From: Nocardioidaceae bacterium SCSIO 66511
Lineage (GTDB): Bacteria > Actinomycetota > Actinomycetes > Propionibacteriales > Nocardioidaceae
NCBI GenBank assembly: GCA_023100825.1
Contig: CP095846.1
Span: 2,852,001 to 2,916,000 of the forward strand
Direction of reading: 5' to 3'
Length of the DNA stretch: 64,000 nt
Within the stretch, counting starts at the first letter, position 1; every line of letters starts with the position of its first letter. Of this stretch, positions 33,237 to 43,686 are shown one piece after another. Position numbers and translations under genes: made by a program. The notes beneath the pieces were generated by a model that had not been told where the DNA came from, made no database searches, and saw nothing but the letters and a program-made list of their open reading frames with translations.

Positions 33237-33309
33237 GGCGTCGCCGTACGTTCAAGTGGCAACGCCACCACGATTCGATGGAACGCCCGCACTCGGGCGA
33301 GGAGGCCAC

Positions 33310-34728
33310 ATGTTCGCCAACAAGGACGAACTCTTCAGCTACATCCAGGACCACAAGATCGAGTCCGTCGACGTCCGATTCACCGACTTGCCCGGCATCC
33401 AGCAGCACTTCAGCGTGCCGATCTCGTCGTTCGGTCCGGAGGTCTTCGACGACGGCCTGATGTTCGACGGTTCGTCCGTACGCGGCTTCCAGGCCATCCA
33501 CGAGTCAGATATGGCCCTCTTCCCAGATGTCAGCACGGCGTACCTCGACCCGTTCCGGGAGCGCCCGACGCTGGCGATGGAGTTCTTCATCCATGACCCC
33601 CTGACCGGCGAGGCGTACTCCCGCGACCCGCGCAACATCGCCCGCAAGGCCGAGGCGTACCTCGCGAGCACCGGCATCGGCGACACCGCGTTCTTCGCGC
33701 CCGAGGCGGAGTTCTACATCTTCGACAGCGCGCGCTTCGAGACCTCTGCCAACCGCGGCTACTACGAGATCGACTCGGCCGCGGCGGCTTGGAACACCGG
33801 CCAGGAGGAGGAGAACCGCGGCTACAAGGTGCGCTACAAGGGCGGCTACTTCCCCGTCACGCCGACCGACCACTTCGCCGACCTCCGCGGCGACATGGTG
33901 GCGCACCTCGAGCAGGCCGGCCTCACGGTCGAACGCGCCCACCACGAGGTCGGTACCGCCGGGCAGGCCGAGATCAACTACCGCTTCGACACGCTCCTGG
34001 CCGCCGCCGATGACGTGATGAAGTTCAAGTACATCATCCGCAACACCGCCTGGCAGGCCGGCAAGACGGCGACCTTCATGCCGAAGCCGATCTTCGGCGA
34101 CAACGGCTCCGGCATGCACTGCCACCAGTCGATCTGGTCCGGCGGCGAGCCGCTGTTCTACGACGAGGCCGGGTACGCCGGGCTCTCGGATATGGCGCGC
34201 TACTACATCGGCGGCATCCTGCGCCACGCACCGAGCCTGCTCGCGTTCACCAACCCGACCGTCAACTCGTACCACCGCCTCGTACCCGGCTTCGAGGCAC
34301 CGGTCAGCCTGGTCTACAGCCAGCGCAACCGCTCGGCGTGCGTACGCATCCCGATCACAGGTGCGAACCCGAAGGCCAAGCGCATCGAGTTCCGCTGCCC
34401 CGACCCGTCGGCCAACCCGTACCTCGCGTTTTCCGCGCTGCTGCTCGCCGGCCTCGACGGCATCCGCAACAAGATCGAGCCGCCGGAGCCCATCGACAAG
34501 GACCTCTACGAGCTCCCGCCCGATGAGCACGCACAGGTGCAGCAGGTCCCGACGTCGCTGGAGTCCGTACTCGACGCCCTCGAGGACGACCACGAGTTCC
34601 TCACCCAGGGCGACGTGTTCACCCCCGACCTGATCGAGACCTGGATCGACTTCAAGCGCACCCAGGAGATCGCACCGCTCGCGCTGCGACCGCATCCGCA
34701 CGAGTTCGAGATGTACTTCGACATCTGA
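33310..34728 (+). CDS. glnA: Glutamine synthetase, type I
   Basis: A 472-residue GSI-beta enzyme (ATP-dependent glutamate plus ammonia to glutamine). It has the Asp50 loop [11 protein letters not shown], the metal/ATP-site segments [11 protein letters not shown] and [20 protein letters not shown], the Glu flap and [11 protein letters not shown]. The adenylylation tyrosine lies in [10 protein letters not shown] (Tyr400), so activity is probably controlled by GlnE. The ATG after GAGGAGG gives the normal N-terminus [14 protein letters not shown] GlnR box lies upstream and a 21-bp-stem hairpin follows the stop. Confidence 0.97.
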
Positions 34729-34742
34729 GCCACCCGCTGGGA

Positions 34743-34789
34743 CCGACGTTTGGGCGCGACACGCGCGGCGTGTCGCGCCCGAACGTCGG
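34743..34789. terminator. Strong hairpin after glnA
   Basis: A 21-bp stem (CCGACGTTTGGGCGCGACACG with its complement, one T/G wobble) and a 5-base loop. It lies between the convergent glnA and DUF998 genes. Confidence 0.8.
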
Positions 34790-34801
34790 CGTCACGGTGG
34801 C

Positions 34802-35449
34802 TCAGCCTTCGCTCGGCGAGGCTGCCCCGGACTTTGCCATCGCGACGACCAACAGCCACAGCGACGGCAGGTAGGCCGGGATCCGTTCGAGTCCGCCAAG
34901 TCCGATCCCGACATCAACCCGGGCCAGGAAGAGCACCGTGCACGTCAGCCCCGCGATGCCCGCTGCGATTGTCGCGATCCGCAAGGGGCCGGCCGCTGTA
35001 CCGCGTGACAGGCCAAGGACCAGCAACCCGACGTTGCCAGCGAAGAAGATGAAAAGCGCCCCGAGGACATGCATGTTCTCGTTTACGTCGGCTGGATAGA
35101 CGCCAGCCAACACGTACCCGATCCCCGAGGAGGCGATCAATGCCGTCGGGGTACGCAACAATCCGAGTGCCCGGCCGAGGATCAGCGTTCCGACCACGAT
35201 ACCGACGCCGAAGACGACGAACGACACGTTCATCAGGTCGTGCCACGGCGAGCACACGTAGCGGTCGTCAGGCCCCCACGACCCGCTGGTCACATTGCCC
35301 AGATCGCTGACGTTGTTCGTTGCCCAACTGTACGGGGTGTCCCATCTACTCTCCACGAGAAGCTGGACGACGAGGAACTGTACGAGGCTGGCGGCGATGA
35401 CAATCGATCCCGCGGCGTACCTCGTCGAATGCGAAAGAGTCGTAGGCAT
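34802..35449 (-). CDS. DUF998 membrane protein
   Basis: A 215-residue polytopic protein with about six hydrophobic segments. It starts with AAGSIVIAASLVQFLVVQLLVES and then the DUF998-type motif YSWATNNVSDLGN. A short extracytoplasmic loop (WGPDDRYVCSPWHDLMN) and GVYPADVNENMHVLGALFIFFAGN follow. The family is uncharacterised; some members are linked to membrane stress or lipid metabolism. The AT-richer codons in parts suggest it is less tightly conserved than glnA next door. It is a single-gene unit. Confidence 0.82.
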   Translation of the reverse strand: MPTTLSHSTRYAAGSIVIAASLVQFLVVQLLVESRWDTPYSWATNNVSDLGNVTSGSWGPDDRYVCSPWHDLMNVSFVVFGVGIVVGTLILGRALGLLRTPTALIASSGIGYVLAGVYPADVNENMHVLGALFIFFAGNVGLLVLGLSRGTAAGPLRIATIAAGIAGLTCTVLFLARVDVGIGLGGLERIPAYLPSLWLLVVAMAKSGAASPSEG

Positions 35450-35578
35450 GGACCTACTCTGCTGATGTTCAAGGTTCGGATACGTCGGGCCACGGAACCA
35501 ACTAGTCGCGCCTCCGATCAGCCCCTGGTATGACCGCCTGCCATCAGCCCGAGCGTGGACCTATACGGACTCCCGTAC

Positions 35579-37042
35579 CTATCGGATTCCTGGAGACCCG
35601 TCGAGCGTTGCGCGCAGCGTCGGCTTGTCGATCTTCCCGACCGGGTTCTTGGGGAGTTCGTCGACGCGGTCGATGCGTACGGGGAGCTTGTACGCGCTCA
35701 GGTGCTCGCGACAATGTGCGAGTAGTCCGTCTGCATCGACGTCAGCGCCGGGGCGCAACGACACGAATGCCGTCGGCACCTCCCCGAGGGTGTCGTCGGG
35801 CTGCCCGACGACGGCGGCCTCGAGCACCTCGGGGTGTCGGTAGAGCACCGACTCGATCTCCTTGGGGTAGATGTTCTCTCCGCCTCGGATGATCAGATCT
35901 TTCACCCGGTCGACGAGCACGAGGTATCCGTCTTCGTCGAATCGCCCGACGTCACCCGTACGCAGCCAGCCGTCGACGATCGTACGAGCGGTCTCGTCGG
36001 GCTGGTGGAGGTAACCGGCCATCACCGTTGGCCCCGCGATGACGACTTCGCCGACCTCGCCGGCGGGCAGCGTGGTCCCCTCGGGGTCGATGACACCCAC
36101 CTGCTGACCGGGCAGCGGTAGCCCGACCGTGCCCGGCTTACGTACTCCGTCGAGCGGGTTGATCGTCGACGCGCACGTCGTCTCAGAAAGCCCGTACCCC
36201 TCGACGATCGTCAGGCCGAAACGTTCTTCGAAGGAGGAGATGAGCTGGGCCGGCATCGGCGCGGCACCGCACACGGCGAAGCGCAGAGACGACGTGTCGG
36301 GCCGCACCTCGTCCGGGAGCGCGCTGAGCATGGCGTAGATGGCGGGAACCGCAGAGAAGTACGTCGGCCGAAGTCGCTCGACGTCGGAGAAGAAGCGTTC
36401 GCGGGAGAACTTGCCCGTGATCGACACGCGCCCGCCGGCCCGTAACGGGGTCAGCGTGCCGAGCACGATGCCGTTGGCGTGGAAGAGCGGCAGGATGAGC
36501 AGGCTGTGGTCGTCGGCGGTGATGCCCAGCCACTCGATGAACGACTCGGTCATGGCGTCGAGGTTGCCGTGGGTGAGCATGACACCCTTCGGCTGACCGG
36601 TCGTACCGCTCGTGTAGATCAGCATCGCCAGGTCGTCGGCCGACAGCTCAGCGACCGCCGGTCTGCTCGGCGACGTCAGGTCGCCGACGCCGATGGTGGT
36701 CACGTCGGCAACGGAGCTCGTACCGTCGGCCGTGACGAGGAGCACCGACCGCGCGTCGTGAACCTGATGCGCCGCCTCGGCCCCGGTGAGCACCGGATTG
36801 AGTGGGTTGACCGTCGCGCCGATCCGCCACGCGGCGAACAGCACGACGACGAGCTCAACCCGGTTGTCCAGCTGGACCGCGACGACATCACGCGGGCCGA
36901 CGCCGTGGTCGACCAACGCCCCGGCCGCCGCGCTGACGCGGGCGGCGAACTCACCGTTGCTCAGGCTCGCCAGGTCATCGGCGAGCGCCGGAGCGTCGGG
37001 GTCGTCCGCGACCCGGTCGTTGGGGAGGTTGGCGAAGTGCAT
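35579..37042 (-). CDS. Long-chain/aryl acyl-CoA synthetase (AMP-forming, class I adenylate-forming)
   Basis: A 487-residue enzyme that activates a carboxylic acid to its CoA ester. The P-loop-like motif is LIYTSGTTGQPKGVMLTH; further motifs are VEGYGLSETT, GWLRTGDVGRFDEDGYL, DRVKDLIIRGGENIYPKEIE and the catalytic Lys in KNPVGKIDKPTLR. The start MHFANLPNDRVADDPDAPAL follows the preceding gene's stop by 23 bp. It forms the third gene of an operon with a saccharopine-dehydrogenase-like reductase and an SDR, pointing to degradation of a carboxylic acid such as a fatty, cyclic or aromatic acid. Confidence 0.92.
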   Translation of the reverse strand: MHFANLPNDRVADDPDAPALADDLASLSNGEFAARVSAAAGALVDHGVGPRDVVAVQLDNRVELVVVLFAAWRIGATVNPLNPVLTGAEAAHQVHDARSVLLVTADGTSSVADVTTIGVGDLTSPSRPAVAELSADDLAMLIYTSGTTGQPKGVMLTHGNLDAMTESFIEWLGITADDHSLLILPLFHANGIVLGTLTPLRAGGRVSITGKFSRERFFSDVERLRPTYFSAVPAIYAMLSALPDEVRPDTSSLRFAVCGAAPMPAQLISSFEERFGLTIVEGYGLSETTCASTINPLDGVRKPGTVGLPLPGQQVGVIDPEGTTLPAGEVGEVVIAGPTVMAGYLHQPDETARTIVDGWLRTGDVGRFDEDGYLVLVDRVKDLIIRGGENIYPKEIESVLYRHPEVLEAAVVGQPDDTLGEVPTAFVSLRPGADVDADGLLAHCREHLSAYKLPVRIDRVDELPKNPVGKIDKPTLRATLDGSPGIR

Positions 37043-37065
37043 GATGTCGTTCCCGTATGTCTCGA

Positions 37066-38190
37066 TCAGTCGACCGTCACGACCGGGGCCTGTACGAGAC
37101 CGAGGCCGTGTAGCTGGCCGAGCAGCTCTCGGTGTCCGAACGCCTGGCAGCCCGACGCGAAGCCGACCTTCTTCGGCGGCTGCTGGAGCAGCGAGTACGC
37201 CGCGTACGCCTGCAGCATGCCGGTCTGCTTGTAGTTCTCCTTGCCGTGGATGACGACATGCGAGCGCCCCAATGGACCCGACGCGTGGACGGAGTCCATG
37301 GACTTGTTGACGCGCGGGTTCTCCCGTGGCGGCATCTCGCTCATGACTTGTGAGGCCGTTTCTGCGAGCGCAGCGTACTTCTGCTCGACGCCCATGCCTT
37401 CGGTCGCTTGGATGGCGCCGGACACGATCTGCGGAACCGCGAGCATGAGTCCGCGGTTGAACACCCCGCCGAGCGCTCGCACGTTGGCGACCCGCGGGTC
37501 CTTGCGGTACCAGACCGGATGCGAGGTGCCGCCCCACGGCAGCGCCAGCGCGACTTCGTGCTGACCCGGGATGTTGAGGTGATAGTGCCCGGCCTCCGGG
37601 TCGAACGGCACGTACGCGTTCTGCTCGAGGTAGTGCGCATCGGATAGCGCAGCGTTGAACAGGATGGTCTGAGTCGAGGCGATCGTCGGACTCCCGCCCC
37701 AGAAAACCGCGATGTCGAGGGTGTCGAGGCCGGGCTTCTCCAGGGCGATCTCGGCAGCAATCTCGCCGATCGTGTACATCTGCGCCAACCCGGGAGACAG
37801 CAGGAGTCCGGCCGCGGCGAAGTCGGCGCCGTACTTCTCGTCGCACGACATGACCCAGTCCTGCTCACCGGTCGTGTCCGCGTAATGCGCACCGGCGGCC
37901 AACGACGCCTCGACCACCTCAGGTCCGAAACGGCTGAAGGGGCCGACGGTGTTGAGCACAACCGACGCGCCGGAGAACAGCTTCGTCAGCGCACCGACCT
38001 CGTGTTTGGCTTGAACGATCTCGTAGTCGGCGGTCTCGATGCCCGGCACGTGTGCGGCCATCGATCGAGTGAGCTTGTCCTCGTCGCGGCCGGCGGCGAG
38101 GAAGGGTACGCCGTACTCGCGGAGGTACTCGCAGATGAGTCGGCCGGTGTATCCGGATGCGCCGTAGACGACGACGGGCTTGTTGCTCAT
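37066..38190 (-). CDS. Saccharopine dehydrogenase-like NAD(P)-binding protein
   Basis: A 374-residue protein with an N-terminal Rossmann site VVVYGASGYTGRLICEYL and the family segment VVLNTVGPFSRFGPEVVEASLAAGAHYADTTGEQDWV. These match the DUF/saccharopine dehydrogenase-like reductases related to mycobacterial trans-acting enoyl reductases. It is unlikely to act in lysine metabolism. AAGGAG precedes the ATG. It sits between the SDR and acyl-CoA synthetase genes in one operon and probably reduces or oxidises an acyl-CoA or ketone intermediate. Confidence 0.87.
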   Translation of the reverse strand: MSNKPVVVYGASGYTGRLICEYLREYGVPFLAAGRDEDKLTRSMAAHVPGIETADYEIVQAKHEVGALTKLFSGASVVLNTVGPFSRFGPEVVEASLAAGAHYADTTGEQDWVMSCDEKYGADFAAAGLLLSPGLAQMYTIGEIAAEIALEKPGLDTLDIAVFWGGSPTIASTQTILFNAALSDAHYLEQNAYVPFDPEAGHYHLNIPGQHEVALALPWGGTSHPVWYRKDPRVANVRALGGVFNRGLMLAVPQIVSGAIQATEGMGVEQKYAALAETASQVMSEMPPRENPRVNKSMDSVHASGPLGRSHVVIHGKENYKQTGMLQAYAAYSLLQQPPKKVGFASGCQAFGHRELLGQLHGLGLVQAPVVTVD

Positions 38191-38239
38191 GTTGAGCTCC
38201 TTGTTGTTCGGGGGTGCGGAGATGACTGAGCTCGGTGAG

Positions 38240-39043
38240 TCACATGCCCATGCCGCCGTCGACGGAGAGCGCGACGCCGTTGACGAACGCGGAGTCCTCC
38301 GACGCAAGGAAGGCCACCCCGTCGGCGATGTCCTGCTCGGTCGCGAGCCGGCCTGATGGGGTCAGCCCGACCACGGCCGCGACGGCTTCATCGGGCGAGC
38401 CGAAGAGCCCGAGCTCGGCGGTGTCTTGAGCAAGTTGCGCACCCATCGCATTGGGTACGAGCCCCGGGCAGACGGTGTTGACCCGTACGCCGTAGCCGAG
38501 CCGTCCGGATTCGGCGGCAGCGACCCGCGAAAGCCGGTCGACAGCCGATTTGGAGGCGGAGTACGCCGCGATGCCAGGAAATGCGATGGTCGCCGCAACC
38601 GAGGCGACGTTGACGATCGCTCCCCCGGCACCGGCTGGACCTTCTGGCCGCATCGCGCGGAACCCGTGCTTGATGCCGAGCATTGTTCCGACGACGTTGA
38701 CATTCATGATCTTGCGGACGTTCTCGGGATCGAGATCGACGAACAACTCGGTGATCTCGATACCCGCGTTGTTGACGACGACGTCGAGGCCGCCGAGTGC
38801 GGCGATTGCGTCCGGCATCGCCGCCTCCCATGACGCATCGTCGGTGACGTCGAGCTCGACGTACGCGGCTTTGCGACCTTGATCGGTCAAAGAACGTGCG
38901 CTGGCGGCGCCGGCGTCGGCATCGATGTCGCCGAGCACAACGGTGGCTCCCCGTGCAGCCACCGTTTCGGCCATCTTGAGCCCGAGTCCGCGGGCGCCAC
39001 CAGAGATGAGGACCTTCCGGCCGCTCAGATCGCACGTTGCCAT
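38240..39043 (-). CDS. Short-chain dehydrogenase/reductase
   Basis: A 267-residue classical SDR. It shows the cofactor site VLISGGARGLGLKMAE, NNAG (VVNNAGIEITELF), the catalytic Ser region VASVAATIAFPGIA with YSASK (Tyr and Lys), and the C-terminal block FVNGVALSVDGGMGM. An acidic residue after the second strand (LGDIDAD) favours NAD(H). It resembles hydroxysteroid/3-hydroxyacyl-type dehydrogenases. It is the first gene of a TetR-linked three-gene operon, divergent from the regulator. Confidence 0.93.
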   Translation of the reverse strand: MATCDLSGRKVLISGGARGLGLKMAETVAARGATVVLGDIDADAGAASARSLTDQGRKAAYVELDVTDDASWEAAMPDAIAALGGLDVVVNNAGIEITELFVDLDPENVRKIMNVNVVGTMLGIKHGFRAMRPEGPAGAGGAIVNVASVAATIAFPGIAAYSASKSAVDRLSRVAAAESGRLGYGVRVNTVCPGLVPNAMGAQLAQDTAELGLFGSPDEAVAAVVGLTPSGRLATEQDIADGVAFLASEDSAFVNGVALSVDGGMGM

Positions 39044-39097
39044 TTCGCACTTCCCATCTGCCGTGAAATATGACCAGAGTCACAGCAGACCAGAATT

Positions 39098-39135
39098 TTG
39101 GACAGTTGACAAGAGAAAACTTGACGATCGTCCAA
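39098..39135. promoter_or_regulatory. Candidate TetR operator/promoter region
   Basis: An imperfect inverted repeat, TTGGACAGTTGACAAG and CTTGACGATCGTCCAA, around a 6-base spacer; 12 of 16 positions pair. It lies in the AT-richer gap between the SDR operon and the tetR gene, and it includes a TTGACA-like element. Confidence 0.5.
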
Positions 39136-39213
39136 TCGATTGGCGAGCATCTGAAGCAACGGGCGCTCGATCGGCGAATACACTCTCGACTAGCAGACGA
39201 AGGGGTTCCGGCA

Positions 39214-39831
39214 GTGGTCACGTACAGCGAGCGGGTCGAGAAGGCCGCCACCGACAAGTTCGGTGCACGCCGCGACCAGCTCGCCGAGTCTGCGCTCAAG
39301 ACACTCGCCGAGCGTGGCTACGCCAACACCGGTCTGCGCGACATCGCCGAGAACTCCGACTTCTCCCACGGAGTCCTGCACTACTACTTTCGCGACAAGA
39401 ACGACCTCATCCAGCACTGCGTACGCCAGTACAAGACCGACTGCGCGACCCACTACGACGAGATCGTCGAGACCTCGCAGACAGCCGACGAGCTGATGAG
39501 TCGTTTCTGTCCGGCCTTGGCCGGAACCCTCCGCGACGACGCCTCGATGCACCGCCTCTGGTACGACCTGCGCAACCAGAGCATGTTCGACGCAGAGCTC
39601 ACACCCGTCATCCAGGAGATCGATCACCTGCTGGAGCAGATGATCTGGCGGATCGTCACCCGCTACGCCGAGCTCGCGGAGTCAGAGGTCTCCGTACACC
39701 CCGCGCTCGCGTACGCGATGTATGACGGGATGTTCGAGCAGTCGCTCGTGGCCTTTCTGGCAGGCGATCTGGCGGCCCTTGACGCCGTCGAGCAGCACAG
39801 CAGGCGGCTGCTGCAACTGCTAGTGCCCTGA
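39214..39831 (+). CDS. TetR-family transcriptional regulator
   Basis: A 205-residue regulator. The N-terminal helix-turn-helix is LAESALKTLAERGYANTGLRDIAENSDFSHGVLHYYFRDKNDLIQHCV. The C-terminal all-helical part is the ligand/dimer domain. A GTG with AGGGG 8 bases upstream is preferred; the open frame extends 48 codons upstream through the putative operator and is unlikely to be translated. It is divergent from the SDR/reductase/acyl-CoA synthetase operon, which it probably represses. Confidence 0.85.
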   Translation: MVTYSERVEKAATDKFGARRDQLAESALKTLAERGYANTGLRDIAENSDFSHGVLHYYFRDKNDLIQHCVRQYKTDCATHYDEIVETSQTADELMSRFCPALAGTLRDDASMHRLWYDLRNQSMFDAELTPVIQEIDHLLEQMIWRIVTRYAELAESEVSVHPALAYAMYDGMFEQSLVAFLAGDLAALDAVEQHSRRLLQLLVP

Positions 39832-40163
39832 GCGACAGTGCGCGGGGCGCCGGTCGCGGGCTGGATCTCACCGTGAGCCTGTTTACAAATTAGGTTCTTG
39901 ATGGAACACAAATTGTCATTGCGAGCTGATCTCATCAGCGTCAGCGAAACGGCGCCGCAACTTCGATGGCAATCTCCATGCCAGTGCCCGTCAACACAAC
40001 AAGCGGACATCTGACGGGCCCTGTCGCACCTAGGCTTGATCTTCGTCGCCGCAGTTCTGAGGTCCAACAGCACGGACGACACTCCAAGTGCCTGTCTCCG
40101 GGTTCCTAGCCGATGACCACGGTCTGCGACGGCGCCCGACACGCAACGCAGAACGCGATTGCA
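39832..40163. other. Intergenic region, no gene recognised
   Basis: This 332-bp stretch after tetR contains visibly more A+T than its surroundings (for example GTTTACAAATTAGG). No supported open frame, tRNA or clear terminator was seen. It forms the left edge of the lower-GC island that holds the helicase and MazG-like genes. Confidence 0.5.
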
Positions 40164-41888
40164 TCAGCGAAAGAACTGCTTGAGGTACGCCCGCAACGGC
40201 GGGTCGCACACGTAGATGTACGTGCCAAGCATTCCGCGGGTGAGAAGAACGGCGTAGATGTTTCGGACGAAGGTCAGCACGTCGTCGTCGCTGTACGTCA
40301 GGTTGCGTTTTCGGTTGTTCTCCATCCCCTTCGTGTCGAAGTACTCGCTCCGATCAAAGCGGAGTCGCCGAGTGATGGGGTCGAAACGCAGATCGTTGCC
40401 GACTATGACTCCCGCATAGTTGAGGTCGTACCCCTGAATCGTATGGATGGATCCGACTTCGTCGGGCGCATTCGGTGAGTTCACCCAATCGACCTCGGCG
40501 GAGTTCCATCGCAACTGGACACCGTCAAACTCAAGGTCGTATGCCGTTTTGTCGATACGGCTCCGCCAAGGCCATGCGTACCCGGCGACCAGGCGGGCAA
40601 GCCCGACCTCGTCGTCCCGCTGACGTATTGCGGCACGCATCGCGCCAAGATCCTCGAAATGGCGCAGGTCGTAACCGTCAAACTGACGCGGTACGGGTGG
40701 GTTCGGCGACAGGACGCTCCGCACGTAGGACACGTAGTCGCTTCCGGCGCCGACGCGCATCTGCGAGGTGAGTGGATACCGCCGGTCCTGTAGTTCAGCG
40801 TCACGTGTGAGCGTCTCGATCGCCCGGAGAGGAAGGTCGGCAGGGCGTACAGCCTGTGCAGCATCGACAAGGAAGAGTTGATGGGTGCTCTGCTGCTCGA
40901 CCCAGTCGAGTTGGGTCAACTCCGGATCGTCAGTCCCAAACAGAGCTCGATTGATATCGCCGAACTGTCGATTCCTGATTCCGGACGACTGATTTGCTCG
41001 CTGCTTGAGTCGATGCGTCTCGTCGACGATGAGCAGATCGAATCCTTCTTTGCTCGCTCCGACCTGGAACGGGGTGAGGACCATGTTTGCGTCCAGCCCT
41101 GGGGTCTGTTTGAACACCCGTTTGATCGACGTCCGCAGTGACTGCTGCGGTACGACGAGGCCGAAGCGAAATCCCTCGACCAGATCTCGATATCCTTCCA
41201 GGAAGAACTCCGACAGCGGTGAGTCACCCGCGATCTCGTCGACCGGCGGGCGCACGTTGGCTGCCACGATGTCCGAGAGCAGCTTCATGAGATAGATCGC
41301 GACTACCGTCTTGCCTGTGCCGGGCTCGCCCTGTATAACGATCCGGCTCGACGAACCCGTGCGCAGGTCCTCGAACAGACCATCCAGGATGTCTTCGACC
41401 GCCGTCGCTTGGTCCGGTGTGAGTGCCTTGAACGGAGATAGCTTGAAGAGGTCGTCATTGACGATGTCGCGCCTCGACCGAGTGAATACGTCGCTCCCGC
41501 GCAGTGCTTCGAAGATCTCCTCGAACGTTTCGCGATAGGCATCGCGCCCGTAATAGTCGGCGTCGGTGATGCCCTCGTTTCCGTTCAGCACCTGGTAACG
41601 CCCGTCGCCCGAGAGGAGACGGATCAGGTACGACTCGAGGTCGAGGCAGACTGACTTATTGAACGTCCTATCGAGAACCACCATCGTACGATCCAGTGCA
41701 GCTTTGGATGGCGACTCGAGGTGTTGGCGCAACCGCGCAACGACGTTGAGGGACTCGCCGACGTAGACCTTCTCCTCACCATCGAGGATGTAGACGACCG
41801 GCCAGTTCGCATACCTGCGGTCCTGCTCCGGAAGACGCACGATCAGCTCGCGTGCGAACTCGAATCTCTCGACTCTAAAGGTCGTCAT
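40164..41888 (-). CDS. GIY-YIG nuclease fused to DUF2075 (Schlafen-like) helicase
   Basis: A 574-residue two-domain protein. Residues about 28-105 form a GIY-YIG nuclease: VVYIL...VYVGES (31-46), candidate catalytic Arg52/Arg54, Glu85 (CLDLESYL) and Asn (VLNGNEG). From about residue 155 there is a superfamily-1 type helicase/ATPase of the DUF2075 family: TPDQATAVEDIL, Walker A GEPGTGKT (187-194), DETH box LLIVDETHRLK (289-292), sensor LVDAAQAVRP, and a C-terminal SIHTIQGYDLNYAGVIVG motif with LLTRGMLGTYIYV. All core motifs look intact. The ATG overlaps the upstream MazG-like gene by 14 bp. Base composition is lower in GC than its neighbours, suggesting transfer. A nucleic-acid-targeting defence or repair role is inferred. 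Confidence 0.88.
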   Translation of the reverse strand: MTTFRVERFEFARELIVRLPEQDRRYANWPVVYILDGEEKVYVGESLNVVARLRQHLESPSKAALDRTMVVLDRTFNKSVCLDLESYLIRLLSGDGRYQVLNGNEGITDADYYGRDAYRETFEEIFEALRGSDVFTRSRRDIVNDDLFKLSPFKALTPDQATAVEDILDGLFEDLRTGSSSRIVIQGEPGTGKTVVAIYLMKLLSDIVAANVRPPVDEIAGDSPLSEFFLEGYRDLVEGFRFGLVVPQQSLRTSIKRVFKQTPGLDANMVLTPFQVGASKEGFDLLIVDETHRLKQRANQSSGIRNRQFGDINRALFGTDDPELTQLDWVEQQSTHQLFLVDAAQAVRPADLPLRAIETLTRDAELQDRRYPLTSQMRVGAGSDYVSYVRSVLSPNPPVPRQFDGYDLRHFEDLGAMRAAIRQRDDEVGLARLVAGYAWPWRSRIDKTAYDLEFDGVQLRWNSAEVDWVNSPNAPDEVGSIHTIQGYDLNYAGVIVGNDLRFDPITRRLRFDRSEYFDTKGMENNRKRNLTYSDDDVLTFVRNIYAVLLTRGMLGTYIYVCDPPLRAYLKQFFR

Positions 41889-42201
41889 ACTTCGTGCTCC
41901 TGCCACGAGCCTTCTCGACCGGATACTTCTCTCGCGTCACAGCGAGCTTGTCGAGCACGATCTGGTCAGGGTCGACACCGAGGCGTGCGGCAAGTAGAAG
42001 ACAGTACGTAAGGACATCCGCCAGCTCGTCCACGACTCGAGCGCCGGGAGCGTCGTCGCTCCACTGGAAGCACTCCAAGAGTTCGCCGGCCTCAATGACG
42101 ATGCTCTTTGCGAGGTTCCCGGGCGTGTGGAACTGTGTCCACTCTCGTTCTGCGACAAAGGCCCGCAACTGCTGGTCAACCTCGTCCGCGTTCTTCCCCA
42201 C
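41875..42201 (-). CDS. MazG-like nucleotide pyrophosphohydrolase
   Basis: A 108-residue all-alpha NTP pyrophosphohydrolase of the MazG/RS21-C6 type. It has REWTQFHTPGNLAKSIVIEAGELLECFQW (metal-binding ExxE) and VVDELADVLTYCLLLAARLGVD (the second, ExxD motif). Such enzymes hydrolyse non-canonical or excess (d)NTPs to NMP and pyrophosphate. The GTG start has GGAGG 6 bases upstream and begins the conserved fold; an in-frame upstream ATG lacks support. Its stop overlaps the start of the GIY-YIG/DUF2075 gene, so the two are translationally coupled. Confidence 0.85.
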   Translation of the reverse strand: MGKNADEVDQQLRAFVAEREWTQFHTPGNLAKSIVIEAGELLECFQWSDDAPGARVVDELADVLTYCLLLAARLGVDPDQIVLDKLAVTREKYPVEKARGRSTKYDDL

Positions 42202-42504
42202 CGAAACGCCTCCGATCCGGAACTCGTTTCGGTCGTGTCTATCAGACACTTCCACACAGATCGCAAGCGTCACGCCGTCAGGACGCCGGCTTCATCACAC
42301 CTGCGGCGTCCGGCGTGTTCTCAGACACGCGATGTTTACAACCGAGCACGTCGCTGTGGCGGGCTTACGACCCGGGACCGTTGACCCAACGCGTCGCTCT
42401 GATGCGGCCGATTACGGTCACAAACGAACACACAAGTCTCAGACCGTTCGGCTGGGCGAGCGGATCTGCACGTCACCCACATCGCCGGAAACGACGAGAA
42501 GGTG
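42202..42504. other. Intergenic region upstream of the MazG-like gene
   Basis: This 303-bp gap separates the MazG-like start from the MFS stop. The promoter of the two-gene module must lie here. No open frame with coding character, no tRNA and no clear attachment site were seen. A 9-base word TGTTTACAA occurs here and near 39885, too short to call as island ends. Confidence 0.4.
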
Positions 42505-43686
42505 CTAGGACGCAGCGACCAGTTGTGGGGTCTTCGCTTTCCACGCGAGCGGGATGACGGTTGCGAGCAGGCCTATCGCCATCAGCACCAGCCACATGGC
42601 TGGGTAGCTGAAGTGTTCGACGACGAAGCCCGCTGCCGGCGGGCCGCACATGAAGCCCAGGAAGAGGCCGAGTGACACCCGACCCGTGGCGCGCCCGATC
42701 GAGTCCGCGGGGGTGGCGTTGAGGACGGCGACCATCACGAGCACGTTGGCGGCAAGGGCACTGAAGCCGAACAGCCCGGCGGCCGGCCACACGAGCCAGG
42801 TGCCGATGTGCTCGGTCAGCACGATGGCGACCAGTGCTAAGACCGTGATCACGGACAGCCAGCTCATGGGCGTACGAAGGTCGCTCACGTCCTGCACGCC
42901 CCTGCCCCACAGGAACCTCGCGATCACGCCGACACCGCCAAGCACGGCGACAACCAGCCCGGCATCGGAGGCGGAGAGGCCGAGCTTCACGTGGGCGTAC
43001 AGGGGTAGGTAGACGTTCGTCGCCTGAGCGACAGCACCCGCTGCGAAGGCGTACGCGAACAGCCAGGCGACAGCCAAAGTCGGTGGCCCAGAGCCGGAGG
43101 GCGCGACCACGCGGCGGCTATCAGAGCCACTCGTCGTTGGCACGGTCGCGAGAATCCCGACGATGGCAACGACACAGCACACGGCGAGCGCGTTGCGCCA
43201 TCCCCACCAAACCGCGAGCGGAGGCAGCAGGAGTCCCGCCATCAGCTGACTTGCCTGTACGCCGGACTGCTTGATGCCAAGGATCGACCCGCGTCGACGT
43301 ACGTCTACCCGTTCGAGCAGGTAGCGGTTGGTCGCCGGATTGGCCAGTGCCTGCGCGACGCCCGACAGTACGAGGGCCACCAACAACACCGTCAGTCCGG
43401 GAGTGATGGCTGCGCCCAGAGTCGCGACGCCGGAGACCGCAAAGGTCGCGACGAACAGGCCGCGCAGTCCGATCCGGTCGGCGAGCCAGCCGCCAGCCGT
43501 GGTCGCCAGGCTCGCCGCGGCGAATACGACCAACCAAAGCTGCCCGTACTGACCGACGGACAGCTCGAGGTCGTCGACGACCAGCGGACCGAGCGCCGCG
43601 AGTGCGTAGTGCGTCAAGGGGCCGACGCCCATGGCCATGGCCAGGTAGGCCGCGATGAACCAGGACGCCGGCTGCCTCGACTTCAC
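42505..43686 (-). CDS. MFS transporter
   Basis: A 393-residue major facilitator with 12 predicted helices. The loop 2-3 motif is GGWLADRIGLRGLFV, and LLERVDVRRRGSILGIKQSGVQASQLMAGLLLPPLAVWWGWRNAL is seen after helix 4. It is the last gene of the IclR-linked catabolic operon, starting 17 bases after the substrate-binding-protein stop. It may take up or expel the pathway substrate or a product; substrate unknown. Confidence 0.9.
   Translation of the reverse strand: MKSRQPASWFIAAYLAMAMGVGPLTHYALAALGPLVVDDLELSVGQYGQLWLVVFAAASLATTAGGWLADRIGLRGLFVATFAVSGVATLGAAITPGLTVLLVALVLSGVAQALANPATNRYLLERVDVRRRGSILGIKQSGVQASQLMAGLLLPPLAVWWGWRNALAVCCVVAIVGILATVPTTSGSDSRRVVAPSGSGPPTLAVAWLFAYAFAAGAVAQATNVYLPLYAHVKLGLSASDAGLVVAVLGGVGVIARFLWGRGVQDVSDLRTPMSWLSVITVLALVAIVLTEHIGTWLVWPAAGLFGFSALAANVLVMVAVLNATPADSIGRATGRVSLGLFLGFMCGPPAAGFVVEHFSYPAMWLVLMAIGLLATVIPLAWKAKTPQLVAAS

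Follow-up and report, generated by a model that had tools for sequence, protein, structure and literature searches.

A MazG-like pyrophosphohydrolase and a GIY-YIG nuclease-helicase encoded by overlapping genes in Nocardioidaceae bacterium SCSIO 66511: a candidate anti-invader module

Gene layout and overlap

In the genome of Nocardioidaceae bacterium SCSIO 66511 we analysed a window of 64,000 nucleotides (nt), positions 2,852,001 to 2,916,000 of contig CP095846.1. Its minus strand (window positions 42201-40164) carries the gene of a MazG-like pyrophosphohydrolase followed by that of a nuclease-helicase fusion protein. The two overlapping open reading frames (ORFs) that a first reading of the sequence, called the original prediction below, had placed at 40164-42201 were confirmed by matches to the Pfam families PF12643 and PF09848. 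We lean towards regarding the pair as a horizontally moving, restriction-like module against invaders, in which the nuclease-helicase and the deoxynucleoside triphosphatase (dNTPase) would co-operate. The pair consists of the following features:

41875-42201, minus strand: MazG-like all-alpha nucleoside triphosphate (NTP) pyrophosphohydrolase of the DCTPP1/RS21-C6 type, 108 amino acids (aa) (PF12643, PDB matches, motif and start context)
40164-41888, minus strand: fusion of a GIY-YIG nuclease with an SLFN-g3/DUF2075 superfamily 1 (SF1) helicase, 574 aa from ATG (PF09848, 20-sequence alignment)
41574-41888, minus strand: GIY-YIG nuclease domain, residues ~1-105, with Glu85 at 41634-41636 (invariant residues; PF01541 below its cut-off)
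40203-41342, minus strand: SF1-type ATPase/helicase domain (PF09848 over residues 189-568 of the 580-aa ORF; motifs)
41875-41888, minus strand: overlap of 14 nt, with the helicase ATG within the last MazG codons (overlap length kept in relatives)

The MazG gene starts with GTG at 42201, preceded by GGAGG 7 nt upstream, and its ORF stays open up to an alternative GTG at 42273. For the helicase gene ATG 41888 is a more likely start than GTG 41906, because the helicases of close relatives begin with MT(S/T)F, and with this start the overlap with the MazG gene amounts to 14 nt. The same length was found in three relatives (loci L002, L016 and L018 of our survey), and three others overlap by 4 nt (ATGA/GTGA; L104, L106, L107). 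The original prediction had combined overlap with translational coupling; the overlap stands, and from it we infer the coupling. A scan of 39700-42700 for sigma-70 promoters and terminators revealed none.

The MazG-like protein

The first protein matched PF12643 with 72.5 bits (cut-off 27), and its nearest solved structures were RS21-C6 (E 3.4e-21) and dCTP pyrophosphatase 1 (E 3.8e-21), whereas MazZ matched weakly (E 0.027). The residues of the ExxE...ExxD site, which we take to bind metal, do not vary in any of 29 aligned partners. Family score and site together place the protein among the MazG-like/DCTPP1-type all-alpha NTP pyrophosphohydrolases, and its substrate is presumably of the dCTP type. 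It shares the fold family of the DCTPP1/RS21-C6 and MazZ types of MazG enzymes, but differs from both in forming a coupled gene pair with a nuclease-helicase. This MazG type is present once in the source genome (E <= 0.01); since this single copy is the helicase-paired one, the linkage is not due to chance.

The nuclease-helicase protein

The large protein belongs to the SLFN-g3_helicase family PF09848 (formerly DUF2075), which it matched over positions 4-354 of the 354-position profile (E 5.2e-59; 200.7 bits, cut-off 24). ResIII was matched as well (31.4 bits, cut-off 22.5). The GIY-YIG family PF01541 scored 19.6 bits (E 0.0011), slightly short of the 22.6 that Pfam requires. When 20 GIY-type relatives were aligned, whose sources include genomes of this phylum and Bacillota plasmids, Y33, Y42, G44, R52, H56 and E85 proved invariant in all of them, with N102 kept in at least 90%. 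These are the tyrosines, the glycine and the presumably catalytic Arg and Glu that characterise the GIY-YIG superfamily; because the signature residues are invariant in 20/20 relatives, the domain is real despite its weak Pfam score, and the original prediction of an intact nuclease including Glu85 holds.

The predicted intact SF1/DUF2075 ATPase with its Walker A lysine and DETH box was confirmed in the same alignment, where neither the Walker A (G187, G190, G192, K193) nor the Walker B residues (D289, E290, H292) vary in any of the 20 sequences; the same holds for residues in the helicase motifs further on (D342, Q345, Q376, R378, Q485, G486, D488, R551). In the window the motifs read GEPGTGKT (Walker A, 41307-41330), DETH (Walker B), DxxQ, QMR, QGxDL and RG. 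Scans of NCBIfam and PHROGs gave weak or partial matches at most, among them a weak resemblance to the excinuclease Cho (NCBIfam, E 0.013). A structure of the helicase predicted from a 4-sequence alignment was discarded as too poor (mean predicted local distance difference test 45.5, predicted template modelling score 0.39).

Distribution and linkage across genomes

The genome survey covered one phylum together with plasmid and phage records. For the 4-kb linkage counts the spacing of MazG and helicase was measured between stop-to-stop ORFs, the MazG search profile was seeded with six members of the pair's own family, and genes of neighbour loci were called with a simple script. A profile of close homologues had matches in 17 of the 197 Nocardioidaceae genomes, spread over 7 of 26 genera and lying in differing contexts. 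This patchy pattern speaks against vertical inheritance at one locus, in agreement with the original prediction. Full-length homologues in these 197 genomes numbered 15, and MazG is attached in all 15. Among loci on genome contigs, L016 and L018 and the fragments L017 and L020 also have MazG.

PF09848 was found at E <= 1e-20 in 36 of 396 genomes of the phylum (39 matches). By their N-termini these helicases comprise 10 of the GIY-YIG type, 21 of a PD-(D/E)XK type, 6 of a divergent subgroup and two truncated proteins (L111, L112). MazG lies within 4 kb of 8/10 GIY-type and 10/21 PD-(D/E)XK-type helicases. The PD-(D/E)XK label, which is provisional, was assigned from the conserved motif E98, D109, E128 and K130, kept in 28/28 proteins, since Pfam gave no nuclease match in the two such helicases scanned (L007, L045). 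The divergent, PD-like subgroup carries, by reading, the N-terminal motif ELP...RR.DV...E(F/L)K.

In 586 kb of survey loci we detected 17 MazG-like ORFs, all but one of which lie no more than 1.5 kb from a helicase. The linkage persists while the arrangement changes, MazG being placed upstream or downstream on the same strand or divergently. Partner distances correlated in both classes (r 0.90 with n 15 for the GIY class, r 0.63 with n 14 for the PD class; each 0/2000 permutations). MazG linkage is tight in the window's family, common yet not obligatory elsewhere and loose in Bacillota. In L082, L083 and L120 two PF09848 helicases of the PD-(D/E)XK-like kind are arranged in tandem, and the stretch around them has no MazG (up to 4 kb away in the case of L082 and L083).

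Among plasmids, 40 of 72,556 records matched the helicase protein, and the loci of 19 of these 40 were examined. MazG directly adjoins the helicase in six (L042, L045, L114, L118, L119, L124) and lies 3.4 kb away in L047; L119 is a haloarchaeal plasmid. The PD type has MazG in 3/7 records, and truncated helicases were seen in three records, one of them with MazG.

Phage records matched in 4 of 50,697 cases, and MazG adjoins the helicase in all four. Three of these are unverified faecal scaffolds, the best being MT836409 (60.7% identity) with bacterial-looking genes. The fourth, Microcystis phage Mwe-JY31 (L126, 5868-8074), has MazG directly upstream of a PD-type SLFN-g3 helicase, both annotated as hypothetical; carriage of the module by a named phage thus occurs at least once. 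Scans of IMG/VR found no relative. In MT836409 (L048), labelled Bacteriophage sp., a SauUSI-type enzyme occurs together with the MazG-nuclease pair and a gene resembling that of a glycogen-debranching enzyme; the record is probably bacterial DNA. A further scaffold, MT838580 (L125, 2992-6968), encodes on a single strand, one after the other, a divergent PD-type helicase, MazG and a GIY-type helicase, an arrangement resembling a combination of both module versions.

Defence and mobile neighbours

We took nine pair loci with 20 kb of context and compared their neighbours with nine regions picked, without looking, from the genomes concerned. The neighbour set was drawn up without L034 (short contig), L016, L018 and L019 (no control region) and L154-L163. 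The control set used 126 of 128 ORFs, two above 1000 aa and a 4.5-kb control contig of genome G050 being omitted, and ORFs below 120 aa were excluded from both sets. At E 1e-20 the 124 neighbour ORFs matched 113 PADLOC families and the 126 control ORFs matched 5, in counts of models rather than genes that are inflated by redundancy (one methylase matches 58 models at 1e-5); 25 of the 113 families were inspected by name. The predicted enrichment near defence genes was thus borne out, although defence genes are unmistakable in three of the nine loci.

These three loci hold a C5 methyltransferase with an ATPase matching REase_II models (L036), Cas9/Cas1 (L107) and Cas3e with a HEC-05-type protein (L098). 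Beyond the nine, the Lamassu genes LmuA, LmuC and LmuB adjoin the pair in L161, a TmtA-like protein and DrmA accompany it in L016, and in L160 a 1463-aa ATPase weakly matches the candidate PDC-M54A. Genes of type III-A cas adjoin a helicase lacking MazG in L113. Enzymes that are modification-dependent or related to such enzymes recur: a SauUSI-type mREase_IV, immediately upstream in L048 and L042, MrcB_N/DUF3578 in L045 (there with MutT), L041 and L117, and DUF262 in L115. A second dNTP sanitiser, annotated as MutT or as deoxynucleoside-triphosphate pyrophosphohydrolase, was found in L042, L045 and L115.

Mobile genes were also found. In L155, where genes for a TrwC relaxase, an HTH_17 protein and a tyrosine integrase come after it, the pair looks like cargo of an integrative element; in L034 a tyrosine integrase, recognised by reading, lies directly beside the pair.

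Two further observations concern genes next to the pair. Directly upstream of it in L155 (1114-3161) lie genes for a 37-kDa nucleoid-associated (NA37) protein and a RelA/SpoT-domain protein. Just downstream in L158 (37-411) a small separate protein corresponds to the C-terminal part of PADLOC PD-Lambda-1 (E 8.7e-59).

Genomic context of the pair

GC content was scanned in 1743-bp windows every 500 bp across the 64 kb. At 0.598 the pair region is the minimum (mean 0.664, standard deviation 0.020; lowest value at 40001), and GC at third codon positions is 0.74 in both pair genes compared with 0.76-0.92 in ten neighbouring genes. These values and a sister species without the pair bear out the prediction of acquired DNA of lower GC. 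The low-GC stretch extends beyond the pair over the neighbouring TetR gene (GC 0.617), for which we found no evidence that it would be part of the module. The surrounding features are:

39070-39831, plus strand: TetR-family regulator, left neighbour (ORF; family name from the original prediction)
33256-34728, plus strand: glnA (glutamine synthetase), left border of the variable region (PF00120, E 1.8e-138)
42505-43686, minus strand: major facilitator superfamily (MFS) transporter, head of the conserved right-flank operon and right border (family by reading the sequence)
34729-42504, no strand: variable region between glnA and the MFS-led operon, with the pair at its right edge (synteny with the sister species)

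The sister species (G001), the only further member of the genus among the genomes searched, does not have the pair. Its DNA synteny with the window stops at 34726, the end of glnA, and restarts at 42512 in the MFS gene, where DNA identity is 85%. Between the same borders it has 42 kb of other DNA with, by PADLOC, Wadjet JetA, JetC and JetD and DISARM DrmA, DrmB, DrmC, DrmD and DrmMI; reading of this stretch (L031, L032, L027) revealed in addition an integrase, phage-like genes, a Vsr-like gene, a C5-methylase and a Fic protein. In L036, glnA is followed downstream by the C5 methylase, the ATPase mentioned above (GHKL-like by reading) and a copy of the pair. Because G001 and L036 carry defence genes there, the position next to glnA is an apparent hotspot of defence cargo.

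In loci from two genera (L034, 3860-5878; L163, 6755-8749) the pair adjoins the same conserved chromosomal gene, whose proteins start MANRLA. This suggests a second shared insertion site, with the integrase lying between in L034.

Comparison with known systems

At E <= 1 no PADLOC family matched the MazG-like protein, and the helicase gave partial matches, so that no named system was recognised. No description of the pair was found in the open-access literature, the scope of our search, in which SLFN-g3/DUF2075 proteins look uncharacterised, the papers that name DUF2075 appearing to deal with other subjects. Both results support the original view of a candidate undescribed defence system.

Single proteins that join a nuclease to an SF1-type helicase are known in phage defence as Nhi and AbiO. 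The window protein has this combination, but the PADLOC models of Nhi (E 1.4e-5) and AbiO (E 1.7e-6) match residues 162-210 around Walker A alone rather than the full length, and we know of no MazG partner in these systems. The PADLOC candidate PDC-S14 (GIY-YIG type) matches residues 14-112 (E 1.7e-11); its models of 280-320 positions thus meet the N-terminal domain of the 574-aa protein, without helicase and MazG.

SauUSI-type type IV restriction offers a likeness in two respects: an ATP-driven helicase and a nuclease are united in one large protein, and in described cases a small nucleotide pyrophosphohydrolase is a neighbour, MutT being placed beside SauUSI homologues in a figure legend of PMC7641849. 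The window protein differs in combining GIY-YIG with an SLFN-g3 helicase and in having a MazG/DCTPP1 partner instead of MutT. It matches ResIII alone, with no PLD and no DUF3427, whereas the SauUSI-type neighbours in L048 and L042 have the PLD nuclease, ResIII helicase and DUF3427 domains; the window protein is not of the SauUSI type.

The predicted relation to Schlafen proteins stands in so far as the Pfam helicase family is named SLFN-g3. No Schlafen AlbA_2 RNase core is among the Pfam families at E <= 1, and the protein is not a Schlafen RNase. The prokaryotic Schlafen defence proteins that passages of PMC12839542 name are RNases.

Two further classes were rejected. A housekeeping gene is ruled out by the patchy spread and the absence from the sister species, and a generally phage-borne gene by the empty IMG/VR scans and the four matches in 50,697 phage records, the carriage in L126 excepted.

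Proposed function and alternatives

Patchy spread and company of defence and mobile genes were computed directly, and from this genomic association a function in defence appears likely. Also computed directly were the linkage of the genes in this family and part of the wider group, their translational overlap, intact catalytic residues and an exchangeable nuclease; that both proteins co-operate in defence is moderately probable. The target would be DNA rather than RNA.

In the mechanism that we propose, the large protein would be an ATP-driven SF1 motor (SLFN-g3) carrying an N-terminal nuclease, GIY-YIG here and PD-(D/E)XK-like in sister forms. Because the nuclease type swaps while motor and dNTPase stay, the motor may deliver the cut wherever it is loaded, and most likely the nuclease-helicase loads on or travels along invading DNA and cuts it. 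The co-translated DCTPP1-type MazG would hydrolyse dCTP, and probably C5-modified dCTP too, to the monophosphate. This could starve or poison the replication of the invader; alternatively, MazG could keep the host pool, and thus host DNA, clear of a modified base that marks targets. Modified cytosines are pointed to by the modification-dependent enzymes and second dNTP sanitisers that keep company with relatives. Given the company of modification-dependent enzymes and the MutT precedent, restriction-like defence with a dCTPase acting on the (modified) dCTP pool would be the first choice.

A more specific version is put forward tentatively and appears doubtful: the pair would be the type specimen of a family, as yet unnamed, of restriction modules linked to modification. 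These would have an exchangeable nuclease (GIY-YIG or PD-(D/E)XK) on an SLFN-g3 motor and a DCTPP1-like enzyme that clears C5-modified dCTP. Host DNA would then never bear the base attacked by the nuclease, or phages could not build hypermodified genomes. Self would in that case be told from non-self through the nucleotide pool rather than through a methyltransferase.

Several observations weigh against restriction-like defence by a co-operating pair. The dependence on a modified base draws on neighbours of relatives and on nothing within the window, and three of the loci with modification-dependent or related enzymes (L041, L115, L117) have no MazG. Co-occurrence of homologues, as originally predicted, held for 15/15 loci of the family and 8/10 GIY-type helicases of the phylum; it failed for the other two (L079, L105; no MazG within 4 kb), for the helicase L019 and for 7/9 GIY-type helicases on Bacillota plasmids, where MazG was found in L042 and L114. 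MazG is likewise lacking within 4 kb of 11/21 PD-type helicases, three of them on short contigs, and in the loci of five of the six divergent helicases; the sixth lies ~0.85 kb from a MazG that belongs to a neighbour helicase. The correlation of partner distances can also mirror host phylogeny. As to the neighbours, the 113 PADLOC families include PD-T4-6 models, presumably of the kinase type. The three loci with unmistakable defence genes have them within 8 kb; L035, L092, L104 and L106 have no recognisable defence genes in that range, and L033 and L099 show, by eye, only HepT- and nucleotidyltransferase-like ORFs.

A second explanation, possible but rather unlikely, is that the pair serves mobile elements, either in competition between them, by keeping out rival plasmids and phages or degrading them, or in the maintenance of the elements, any benefit to the host being incidental. 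The relaxase, the excisionase-like HTH_17 protein and the integrase beside the pair in L155, the integrase in L034, the 40 matching plasmid records and the Microcystis phage would fit this explanation. However, no relaxase or integrase was recognised by eye in L035, L092, L104, L106, L159 and L163, and the scans of IMG/VR gave no relatives. Defence and inter-element competition are not cleanly separated by sequence.

Restriction-like defence was further set against a cellular pair for DNA repair and nucleotide sanitation, in which MazG would clean dNTPs and the GIY-YIG helicase repair lesions by UvrC/Cho-like chemistry. A GIY-YIG domain, a helicase and a house-cleaning dNTPase are indeed repair-like activities, and the weak likeness to Cho points the same way. 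The occurrence in 17 of 197 family genomes, the sister species without the pair, the GC minimum and the defence and mobile neighbours make this explanation improbable.

The same low probability is given to an abortive-infection or toxin-antitoxin-like unit, with the nuclease-helicase or the dNTPase as toxin and the overlapping partner as brake; dNTP depletion on infection would stop phage replication. In its layout, with a small gene upstream that shares 14 or 4 nt with a large nuclease gene, the pair resembles toxin-antitoxin units, and depletion of dNTPs is a known theme in defence. Against such a unit speak the changing gene order and strand, the helicases without MazG listed above (L079, L105, L019 and the Bacillota plasmid cases) and the catalytic residues that MazG retains, unlike a dedicated antitoxin. 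Accidental neighbours of unrelated function, for which those same helicases might be cited, can practically be dismissed in view of the 15/15 linked family loci, the single MazG copy in the genome, the conserved overlap and the linkage in other phyla and an archaeon.

If restriction-like defence by the pair is correct, it would form a new link between DNA restriction and the control of nucleotide pools, in which the nuclease is swapped while motor and dCTPase are kept. SLFN-g3/DUF2075 proteins are found in bacteria and archaea (archaeal plasmids), and a function for them in bacteria would also inform on Schlafen proteins, whose Pfam family name the helicase shares.

Further observations

Two minor observations were made at other sites. 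A neighbour protein in L154 (5743-8338) is rich in His-x-Ser repeats (GHYSHASHTSHASH) and has apparent companion genes beside it. In G001 identical DNA is present at the two ends of contig C1 (20801-26192 and 4896556-4901947), probably owing to an untrimmed circular overlap of ~40 kb.

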